The position numbers were made by a program, and so were the translations under genes. Below are positions 14,672-17,072 of a DNA stretch of 64,000 nt, in pieces. The notes under the pieces were generated by a model. The model was not told the origin of the DNA. It saw only the letters and a list, made by a program, of their open reading frames with translations, and ran no database searches. The DNA lies in assembly GCA_024644745.1 (NCBI GenBank), contig JAHEHF010000003.1, positions 1 through 64,000 of the forward strand, written 5' to 3'. Position 1 is the first letter of the stretch. Every line of letters starts with the position of its first letter. Origin of the DNA: Flavobacteriaceae bacterium (GTDB lineage: Bacteria > Bacteroidota > Bacteroidia > Flavobacteriales > Flavobacteriaceae).

Positions 14672-15235
14672 ATGAGTCATAAAGAAAATAAAGACAAGGA
14701 AATGGATAAAAATAACGAACCTCAGGAGGTTGCAAAGGAAAATGAAGAAAATAATACAGAGTCAGTTGAAAATGAGGTAGTTGAAAATGAAGTTGAGAAA
14801 CTGAACAGGGAAATAGGGAAAGAGAGAGATAATTTTTTGAGGCTGTTTGCCGAATTTGAAAACTATAAAAAAAGAACTTCCAAGGAGCGCATAGAATTAT
14901 TCAGCACTGCCAATAGGGAACTTATGACAGCATTATTGCCAATTTTGGATGATTTTGAACGGGGTTTGAATGAAATTGAAAAATCATCGGATAAGGCTTT
15001 GCTCGAAGGCATGCAATTGATTTATAACAAATTCAAGAATACTTTGAGTCAAAAAGGGCTCAAGGATATGGAAGTAAAGCAGGGGGATTCTTTTGATCCT
15101 GAAGTGCATGAGGCCATCACCCAGATTCCTGCGCCTTCAAAAAAACTCAAAGGAAAAATCATTGATGTTGTTGAAAAGGGATACAAGCTTGGAGAGAGCA
15201 TTATTAGATTCCCAAAAGTTGTTATTGGTAACTAA
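14672..15235 (+). CDS. grpE: Nucleotide exchange factor GrpE
   Basis: GrpE is the cochaperone that releases ADP from DnaK. The 187-residue protein has an acidic, low-complexity N-terminal tail (residues 1-45, rich in Glu and Asn), then a long helix (EIGKERDNFLRLFAEFENYKKRTSKERIELF). The beta-wing head follows: LLPILDDFERGLN, FDPEVHEAITQIP and a C-terminal YKLGESIIRFPKVVIGN. The length is normal. It lies 28 bases upstream of dnaJ in the usual grpE-dnaJ pair; dnaK is not in the window. An inverted repeat sits 26-47 bases upstream of the ATG (see findings). Confidence 0.96.
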   Translation: MSHKENKDKEMDKNNEPQEVAKENEENNTESVENEVVENEVEKLNREIGKERDNFLRLFAEFENYKKRTSKERIELFSTANRELMTALLPILDDFERGLNEIEKSSDKALLEGMQLIYNKFKNTLSQKGLKDMEVKQGDSFDPEVHEAITQIPAPSKKLKGKIIDVVEKGYKLGESIIRFPKVVIGN

Positions 15236-15263: not shown

Positions 15264-16382
15264 GTGAAACAGGATTATTACGAAATACTTGGTGTAGGGA
15301 AGAATGCTACGGCGAGTGAAATAAAAAAGGCCTATCGGAAAAAGGCAGTGCAGAATCACCCGGATAAAAACCCTGGTGACAAGGAGGCTGAAGAACGATT
15401 TAAACAGGCTGCAGAAGCCTATGAGGTACTGAGCAACGAAGATAAAAAAGCAAAATATGACCGTTTCGGCCATGCTGCTTTTGAAAACGGAGGCGCCGGC
15501 GGCGGCTTTGGGGGGATGAACATGGATGACATTTTCAGCCAGTTCGGTGATATTTTCGGAGGTCATTTTGGTGGCGGCTTTGGTGGCGGTTTTGGTGGTG
15601 GATCACGTCAGAGCAGGATCAAAGGAAGCAATCTGAGAATCAGGGTCAAACTTGAACTCAAGGATATATTGAACGGTGTAACCAAAAAGGTGAAGGTAAG
15701 ACGTCAGGTCAAGGCACCGGGAGTGACATACACTACCTGTACTTCCTGTAACGGACAGGGAAGCGTTATGAGGGTGACCAATACCATTCTCGGAAGGATG
15801 CAAACTGCCACGACTTGTCCGACTTGCAAGGGATCAGGTAAAATTGTTGATCACAGACCCAAAGGGGCTGATGCCAACGGACTGATCACAAGGGAGGAGA
15901 CAGTTGAGATTGATATCCCGGCAGGAGTGACAGATGGGGTACAGCTTAAAGTTTCGGGAAAAGGAAATGATGCACCCGGAGATGGAATTCCTGGAGATAT
16001 TCTCGTGGTCATTCAGGAGATCCAACACGATAAACTCAAGCGTGAAGGAAGTAATTTACACTACGACCTGTATATCAGCTTTTCAGAAGCGGTTCTGGGC
16101 ACGAGTAAGGAAATAGATACCTTGACCGGAAAGGTAAGAATCAAAATTGAAGAAGGAACGCAGTCAGGGAAAATTTTGAGATTGAGAGGAAAGGGCCTTC
16201 CGAGCCTGGACAGATATGGTAAGGGAGATCTGCTTGTTCATCTTAACGTATGGACACCCAAAAAGCTAACAAAAGAGCAACGGTCATTCTTTAAAAGTGA
16301 AGGTGAGCACGAAAATTTTATACCGAAACCATCAATTTCGGAAAAATCTTTTTTTGAAAAAGTAAAGGACATGTTTTCATAA
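15264..16382 (+). CDS. dnaJ: Chaperone DnaJ with a reduced zinc-binding region
   Basis: This Hsp40 cochaperone stimulates DnaK ATPase activity. The 372-residue protein has a J domain ([21 protein letters not shown], with HPDKN at about residues 31-36), a Gly/Phe-rich linker (FGGGFGGG repeats, residues of about 73-112), two beta-barrel substrate domains and a dimerisation tail. The zinc region has only two CxxCxGxG motifs (Cys159/162 and Cys185/188), not four. The outer pair is replaced by [12 protein letters not shown] on one side and [11 protein letters not shown] on the other. I recall the same pattern in other flavobacterial DnaJ proteins, so it is probably lineage-typical. The start is GTG at 15264; no in-frame ATG precedes [10 protein letters not shown]. 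Confidence 0.95.
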
Positions 16383-16450
16383 CTTAAGAGAAATCAATTT
16401 CTTAAGTCGAAGAATTTGTAATGAATAAATTTTTTTAGGAAAATTTTCAT

Positions 16451-16536
16451 TATATTTGTTTTACTGGATTTTTTAATTCAGTAACTTTTTCTTTTTCATA
16501 GCAATTTTCCCACTCTTTTTAAGAGTGGGTTTTTTT
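16451..16536 (+). ncRNA. Candidate small RNA 1 (tandem paralogous pair)
   Basis: An exact -7 box, TATATTTG, occupies 16451-16458. A 10-bp hairpin follows (16461-16470 pairing with 16475-16484, TTTT loop), then a mostly single-stranded pyrimidine-rich linker. The unit ends with a 9-bp GC-rich hairpin (16509-16517/16521-16529) and seven T residues. The layout is that of a short transcript of about 70-75 nt. Bases 16489-16514 are identical over 26 nt to 16655-16680 in the second unit. No open reading frame is present. It could belong to a known flavobacterial RNA family such as Flavo-1, but I cannot confirm that from sequence alone. Confidence 0.6.
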
Positions 16537-16614
16537 ATGCCTGTATATTTTTTGGATCTTTTAATTATTTATAAAATAAATCTTTAAATGATTAGGATTT
16601 TGATGTAAATATTG

Positions 16615-16708
16615 TATTTTTACAATCTTATTTATATTACTTTTAATAGTAATATTCTTTTTCATAGCAATTTTCCCACTTTTGTTTACAAGAGTGGGAT
16701 TTTTTTTT
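16615..16708 (+). ncRNA. Candidate small RNA 2 (tandem paralogous pair)
   Basis: The same architecture as the unit 166 bases upstream. A near-consensus box, TATTTTTA, lies at 16615-16622. An 8-bp AT-rich hairpin follows (16634-16641/16648-16655) whose sequence differs from the first copy but whose pairing is kept. The shared 26-nt block is at 16655-16680. A terminator hairpin (16675-16684/16689-16698) ends the unit, with a T-run at 16700-16708. A stem conserved by different base pairs, beside an identical single-stranded block, is what a structured regulatory RNA would show. The rnpB promoter begins immediately downstream. Confidence 0.58.
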
Positions 16709-16723
16709 GACGCTTAATTAGAC

Positions 16724-16731
16724 TATTTTTG
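16724..16731 (+). promoter_or_regulatory. Candidate -7 box of rnpB (TATTTTTG)
   Basis: An exact TAnnTTTG match ending nine bases before the predicted 5' end of RNase P RNA, the expected distance for transcription initiation. Confidence 0.6.
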
Positions 16732-16740
16732 CAAAAATTA

Positions 16741-17072
16741 AGAGCAAGTCATCTTATCGCCGCGCCTTGGGCGTGGAGGAAAGTCCGGACACTAAAGAGT
16801 AGCATAGCGGATAACATCCGTCGTCACGCCAGAGGCGTGACAGGACAAGTGCAACAGAAAGTATGTACAGTTCGGCTGTAGTGAAATCAGGTAAACTCTA
16901 TGCAGTGCAATGCTATGTACATTGGAGATCCGATTCGTCGGGAGAGAACTACTCGTTCGATTTCAAGGGGTAAGCAGCTAGAATTGTAAAGTAATTTACA
17001 ATCCAGATAAATGATGAGAGTCTCGCTTGTTGCGGGATAACAGAATCCGGCTTATTGGCTTGCTTTTTTTTT
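16741..17072 (+). ncRNA. rnpB: RNase P RNA (class A)
   Basis: This is the catalytic RNA of ribonuclease P, which matures tRNA 5' ends. The two diagnostic conserved regions are both present: GGAGGAAAGTCCGGAC near 16776 and ACAGAATCCGGCTTA near 17040. The P1 helix closes the molecule, with AGCAAGTCA (16743-16751) pairing with TGGCTTGCT (17056-17064) over nine base pairs including one G-U. A T-run at 17064-17072 then serves as the terminator. The length of about 330 nt is typical for a bacterial class A RNA. The ends are estimated from P1 and the -7 box. Confidence 0.95.

Follow-up and report, generated by a model that had tools for sequence, protein, structure and literature searches.

In enterobacteria, the small RNAs MicA and RybB work together with Hfq, and in cyanobacteria the small RNA Yfr1 carries an unpaired motif with a stem-loop on either side. 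The Yfr1 motif is fully conserved and pairs with many mRNAs; most of the predicted sites lie in the translation initiation region, and the targets include outer-membrane and cell-wall genes (PMC6974561, as far as the source was available). The small RNA Rfp18 of Flavobacterium psychrophilum is conserved beyond its species and is predicted to pair via its third stem-loop, the proposed targets being metalloprotease mRNAs and a putative secreted adhesin (PMC9723704, available portion). Flavo-1 and 6S-flavo are described as non-coding RNAs of Bacteroidetes (PMC2864571, likewise available in part).

Here, we analyzed a window of 64,000 nucleotides, the whole stretch of DNA under study, from a Flavobacteriaceae bacterium, and we found that it contains two units which, judged by sequence, are members of a real RNA family that extends across the Flavobacteriaceae. 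The family is new, has no Rfam model, is remarkably conserved and, in our reading, belongs to the small base-pairing RNA kind. Flavobacteriaceae rank among the chief degraders of polymers in the ocean, and to our knowledge few flavobacterial small RNAs have known roles. We propose that the units encode a trans-acting RNA whose core may pair with the start regions of some exported-protein mRNAs; our confidence in this is evenly balanced, both transcription and the effect on targets being inferred. The features of the locus are as follows.

14672 to 15235, + strand: grpE, which opens the conserved grpE-dnaJ context (Pfam GrpE PF01025, E 2.2e-39; open reading frame list)
15264 to 16382, + strand: dnaJ, conserved neighbour lying upstream of the RNA (Pfam DnaJ, DnaJ_C and DnaJ_CXXCXGXG)
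16451 to 16458, + strand: -7 box of unit 1, a full TAnnTTTG, TATATTTG (sequence; consensus and -12 to -5 position from the available part of PMC9723704)
16461 to 16484, + strand: first hairpin of unit 1, AT-rich, 10 bp with a 4-nt loop, arms 16461-16470 and 16475-16484 (fold; covariation of helix 1)
16490 to 16508, + strand: conserved unpaired core of unit 1, TCTTTTTCATAGCAATTTT (sequence; core conservation)
16509 to 16536, + strand: putative terminator hairpin of unit 1, 9-bp CCCAC/GTGGG, with a T-run (fold; covariation of helix 2)
16615 to 16622, + strand: weak -7-like box of unit 2, TATTTTTA (reading of the sequence)
16634 to 16655, + strand: first hairpin of unit 2, 8 bp with a 6-nt loop, arms 16634-16641 and 16648-16655 (fold; covariance model R1, see below)
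16656 to 16674, + strand: core of unit 2, identical to that of unit 1 (sequence; core conservation)
16674 to 16708, + strand: putative terminator hairpin of unit 2, 11 bp, with a T-run (fold)
16741 to 17070, + strand: rnpB (RNase P RNA), outside the conserved context (RF00010, 185.3 bits)

The two units lie 166 nt apart and share a fully identical 26-nt block (16489-16514 and 16655-16680), around which the alignment stretches to 32 nt at 94% identity. The first-pass annotation had placed the block at exactly these coordinates. At up to three mismatches, it has these two sites and no others in the window (0.00 expected from 100 shuffles), and the same two alone in its own assembly (3.14 Mb, 138 contigs, 95.8% complete). 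The first hairpin (10 bp against 8 bp) and the terminator described for each unit also stood up, with folds of -22.1 kcal/mol (z -6.7) for unit 1 and -21.6 kcal/mol (z -6.3) for unit 2, neither of which was equalled by any of 200 shuffles. The -7-like box claimed for both units held fully in unit 1 alone, the box of unit 2 being weaker. TAnnTTTG is the housekeeping -7 box in F. psychrophilum (available part of PMC9723704), and TATATTTG implies a transcription start near 16463. By sequence criteria alone, the RNA has its own promoter and an intrinsic terminator, with the box of unit 2 as the weak element.

A search for the block at up to three mismatches gave matches in 80 of 149 Flavobacteriaceae genomes, some of these matches not being the RNA. 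The exact 21-nt core, used as a pattern, matched at least 118 stretches in the named genome collection; among the matches listed, all 80 record titles were flavobacterial or “Bacteroidetes/Bacteroidota bacterium”, and a few matches are not the RNA (e.g., L071, a gene start). Covariance model R1 was built from 33 sequences, with the structure written from one of them, and it matches unit 2, itself a training sequence, at 16634-16702 with 51.9 bits. At E ≤0.01, the family-wide search with such a model, which had been proposed with the first description of the units, found the RNA in 136 of the 149 genomes, i.e., in 135 of 148 genera. In samples of the order and the phylum, R1 matched 21 of 196 genomes of the order, 19 within the family and two, with marginal scores, outside it (E ~0.004), and 10 of 148 genomes of the phylum, all inside Flavobacteriaceae. 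The searches were run with strict filters, by which weak relatives can be lost. The RNA seems to have been lost from most of genus g127, which we guess to be Flavobacterium: among the genomes listed, 3 have it and 18 lack it (155 genomes without a match lie outside those listed). Named Flavobacterium species whose records contain the core are, among others, F. cerinum (L045) and F. celericrescens (L060). The scans also place the RNA in Christiangramia, Dokdonia and Maribacter (loci L033, L058 and L047).

Both hairpins are real and strongly covarying, as far as aligned homologues can tell. Across 101 R1 matches, standard pairs make up 95.5% of pair cells and all 17 pairs have changed on both sides, with a covariation score of 0.706 versus at most 0.168 in controls with slid partners. 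In a set of 81 R1 matches, from genomes mostly chosen by the model itself, the corresponding values are 97.2%, 15 of 17 pairs, and 0.631 versus at most 0.170. Since R1 alignments are fitted to the structure, some bias is expected. A MAFFT alignment without structure fit retains 88.0% standard pair cells and a score of 0.343 (at most 0.141 slid, mean 0.177 shuffled), with both-side changes in 9 of 17 pairs, a count reached by 97 of 500 shuffles. The covariation of the first hairpin, initially read from the two units, thus extends over both sets of model matches, and the case that would have refuted it, loss of this hairpin with terminator and repeat kept, was looked for without being found, helix 1 being paired in 92.7% and 94.8% of cells. 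With 136 of 149 genomes matched and strong covariation, the view of the units as two copies of a structured non-coding RNA, not a chance repeat, is borne out.

The hairpins are variable in sequence, and the single strand of ~19 nt between them is nearly invariant. Of the 81 R1 matches, 80 retain the unpaired core CTTTTTCATAGCAA, and the sole exception is a weak 32-bit match that looks spurious. R1 was trained on the core, so that it may overlook diverged ones; near variants do appear in the block pattern search, and two phage copies have a core with one additional T.

Membership in a known family such as Flavo-1, raised as a possibility when the units were first described, found no support in Rfam. 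No family matched the units at gathering score in the window or in 18 relatives, and Flavo-1 (RF01705) and 6S-flavo (RF01685) had no match at cut-off in the same sequences and none at E ≤5 over 16380-16745. The six weak Rfam matches to the units are all far below cut-off (e.g., STnc480, 24.7 versus 72 bits). In the open-access literature, leaving aside supplements and subscription papers, we found no description of the RNA or of its phage copies.

The first-pass annotation had stressed the position next to rnpB. This emphasis was misplaced, because the conserved neighbour is dnaJ, which is the immediate upstream gene on the same strand at 136 of 158 cellular sites and 132 of 154 cellular loci (two of the 154, L071 and L144, are not the RNA), at a median of 72 nt from stop codon to core. 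GrpE is the second gene upstream at 125 sites. This survey used exact core sites, with neighbours taken as simple open reading frames, clustered by BLAST and labelled from one member. Of the 136 DnaJ-linked sites, 89 are followed downstream by an ABC-transporter ATPase and permease; the genus of the window and some other genera have rnpB and an aconitase gene in this place instead. A special rnpB link as conserved context can be ruled out, as rnpB occurs in 5 of 18 loci scanned and dnaJ is common. No tRNA gene was found in 19 loci scanned. The grpE-dnaJ genes are listed under a sigma-54-type promoter (PMC9723704, available portion) and unit 1 has its own TAnnTTTG box, from which we infer that control of the RNA may be separate from that of the chaperone genes.

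Two further elements were observed in this region. A perfect 8-bp inverted repeat, ACTTAAGA...TCTTAAGT, lies at the dnaJ stop codon (16382-16407), where the grpE-dnaJ transcript may end. Just 5' of rnpB, at 16724-16731, stands a third TAnnTTTG box, TATTTTTG, so that rnpB probably has a promoter of its own.

Most genomes have one copy of the RNA and some have several. Copy numbers of 5, 8 and 9 were seen in genus g131 (G131, G207 and G318), eight copies in G002, and seven in G033, four of them arrayed in L010; in multicopy genomes the core is conserved and the first hairpins are variable or shared. The exact core also occurs in 23 viral contigs, of which R1 matches 17. Three Polaribacter phage isolates have copies in unannotated gaps.

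L551, 2503 to 2572: RNA copy of phage Leef_1
L552, 2492 to 2559: RNA copy of phage Danklef_1
L553, 2492 to 2559: RNA copy of phage Freya_1

Each of these copies lies directly 3' of a 702-nt hypothetical gene, which is preceded by an endolysin gene in Leef_1 and Danklef_1. DNA searches of a phage collection found the Polaribacter phages, plus weaker matches in unrelated phages, with the L169 unit, weak matches alone (E 0.7) with the L157 unit, and no match with window unit 1. According to PMC8776804, in the portion available, each of the three Polaribacter phage types encodes an integrase; its main text does not use the term “small RNA”.

In the mechanism that we propose, the units would be paralogous copies of one small RNA of ~70-75 nt, each presumably transcribed from its own housekeeping promoter and ending at its intrinsic terminator. 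The strand UCUUUUUCAUAGCAA is predicted to pair antiparallel with UUGCU-AUG-AAA-AAG-A at the start codon, where pairing would block translation initiation, and the inferred targets are a few mRNAs of exported proteins, mainly lipoproteins. The gene would ancestrally have stood just downstream of grpE-dnaJ; a role in lowering the export load in protein stress is a natural idea from this place, and it is untested. Some lineages would have duplicated it, and phages would have acquired it. A broader version is offered only tentatively: in it, a near-universal, dnaJ-linked RNA without Rfam model uses an invariant anti-start-codon strand to adjust how much lipoprotein and other exported protein is made, and phages of these bacteria have repeatedly taken versions of it to steer the same host circuit.

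Pairing of the pyrimidine-rich strand with target mRNAs had been suggested from the outset. It remains plausible with partial support: specific conserved sites speak for it, and genome-wide enrichment is lacking. The core is the complement of UUGCU-AUG-AAA-AAG. Outside the RNA itself, the exact 14-nt core complement has one site in the own genome, where a lipoprotein gene begins (L176); there, 19 uninterrupted pairs could form with the RNA at -23.6 kcal/mol. The counterpart of this gene in a genome of the same genus (G025) gives the best duplex of 982 start regions (-21.8 kcal/mol), and the mean start energy in G025 is lower for the real core than for shuffled ones (-7.15 versus -6.53, sd 0.32). 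Three orthologous pairs, with proteins 39, 57 and 68% identical, retain GCT-ATG-AAAAA, and the DUF6646 and DUF2911 pairs (57 and 68%) retain TTGCT-ATG-AAAAA. Identity at -3 to -1 was found in 12 of 26 ortholog pairs, these three included, and some of the 26 are possibly spurious frames, so that ortholog retention alone is weak evidence.

In another lipoprotein family, which came up several times in the analysis, G[CT]T-ATG occurs in 13 of 30 homologues versus 16 of 423 background ATGAAA genes, and the site is absent from the other 17. Two of the 13 (L554 and L558) had led to the family and seven come from one ancestral context; a control on the same loci (0 of 5) is too small for use. A frame of this family outside the 30 counted (L579), obtained by protein search and not by pattern, has the same 19-bp match as L176 at -23.6 kcal/mol. 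Genomes without the RNA are depleted of TTGCTATGAAAAAH sites, with 2 in 30.4 Mb versus 137 in 486 Mb of genomes with it (Fisher p 0.014; 0.03 without two repeat-bearing genomes), whereas VVGCT control sites, 39 versus 558 in the same genome sets, are about equal per base. As read from translations, without a family search, many members of the lipoprotein family (L554-L583) are near 590 residues and contain repeats, and their neighbours often include a gene for an ECF-like sigma factor and a second small lipoprotein.

Genome-wide tests gave no sign of a general rule. At 420 ATGAAA starts, the upstream complement was no better than permutations, of which fractions of 0.55, 0.42 and 0.50 were at least as good for 3, 4 and 5 matched bases. 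Over the 982 genes of a single genome, sites at or below -16 kcal/mol showed no concentration at starts, with six there, nine within genes and four upstream. As many as six strong start sites were also reached by 22 of 60 shuffled cores, and the 37 sites at -13 kcal/mol or better by 7 of 60. Site counts were retained here, and in-gene mean energies were disregarded as artefactual. For TTGCT versus VVGCT, starts came to about 0.31 versus 0.19 expected, which is not significant (estimates from 30 loci each). In a scrambled-pentamer test, the real pattern fell on start codons at 16 of 30 loci and the two controls at 5 of 30 and 6 of 30; MKK starts have base preferences by position that can account for much of this difference, so we do not take it as proof. 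The candidate target sites are lineage-specific. The evidence therefore gives moderate support to a small, shifting target set and not to global control of MKK starts.

Several candidates were rejected. DUF2911 as a family-wide target is ruled out beyond the genus, as the site is absent from all 16 starts read (of 28 loci in other genera, the rest were unreadable with the motif used). Self-regulation at the dnaJ start is unsupported (mean -9.7 kcal/mol over 173 start regions, in which GCT is not among the 12 commonest triplets preceding the start), and general anti-MKK targeting is unsupported by the genome-wide tests.

Two observations on related sequences are added. Loci L196 and L543 have a 14-codon frame (MQKSNFNNLSLIKL and MKKSNFNNLIPTKL) that both species of the genus retain, its start context being TTTTTGCTATG; it is perhaps a leader peptide. 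Repeats with TTGCTATGAAAAA are apparently non-coding; G113 has six in the same local context (L531-L535 and L537), and G117 has three neighbouring ones (L538).

CsrA is titrated by CsrB, and RNA polymerase by 6S RNA. The main rival to mRNA pairing is a protein-binding role of this sort, in which an RNA chaperone or translational regulator would recognise the U-rich invariant strand of a binding platform or decoy, extra copies would raise the dose, and phages would take the protein from the host. We regard this as less likely, and it has arguments on its side: the strand is kept near-perfectly over ~135 genera while candidate targets vary by lineage, target enrichment is absent genome-wide, and arrays and multiple copies (e.g., the 5, 8 and 9 of genus g131) would suit a decoy. 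However, the likeness of the strand to the complement of a start-codon context is too close to be passed over, a few conserved genes do carry the site, and there is no candidate protein, none having been sought.

The constant place of the RNA, on the same strand and directly 3' of dnaJ in 132 of 154 cellular loci, would also suit an element that acts in cis, stabilising or terminating the grpE-dnaJ transcript at its 3' end and perhaps being processed to a 3'UTR-derived RNA. We find this improbable, since 136 distinct units have a TAnnTT[TA]G box 22-42 nt before TTTCATAGCAA and a terminator motif (42 more sites failed this filter, window unit 2 included, and some failures are not the RNA), dispersed and phage copies lie away from dnaJ, and a plain terminator would have no need of an invariant strand. 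That the block instead codes for a short peptide starting MKK on the opposite strand is very hard to credit. The reverse strand of the core does read ATG AAA AAG, and the frame runs without a stop for 34 codons past unit 2 and for 64-109 in eight relatives (frames of at least 60 codons only), but past unit 1 it has just 8 codons, so the open length is not conserved, and compensatory hairpin changes do not suit a coding sequence. Finally, two near copies in tandem and further ones in phages might recall a functionless chance or mobile-element repeat; we judge this already refuted by the occurrence in 136 of 149 genomes, the fixed context and the strong covariation.

If start-region pairing by a trans-acting RNA holds, a regulator nearly unchanged in about nine of ten sampled genera, beside a chaperone operon and in phages, would be accessible through a single gene to delete. 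It would make testable start-codon antisense regulation in bacteria whose mRNAs lack Shine-Dalgarno sequences. The covariance model R1 is in addition an annotation resource for the field.

Among known systems, the cyanobacterial Yfr1 is the closest in build and proposed action. Both RNAs are short and conserved over a large bacterial group, and the flavobacterial RNA also has an invariant unpaired motif between two hairpins. It differs from Yfr1 in its core, its phylum, its AT-rich hairpins, its dnaJ context and its multiple and phage copies, and its function is only inferred. Rfp18 has at least three stem-loops, whereas the units and the consensus here have two hairpins and an unpaired core, the two RNAs not having been compared directly in sequence. 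With MicA and RybB, the flavobacterial RNA would share the job of lowering envelope-protein translation through pairing on or close to the start codon; those RNAs act with Hfq, whereas a chaperone is unidentified here, and homology was checked through Rfam alone.
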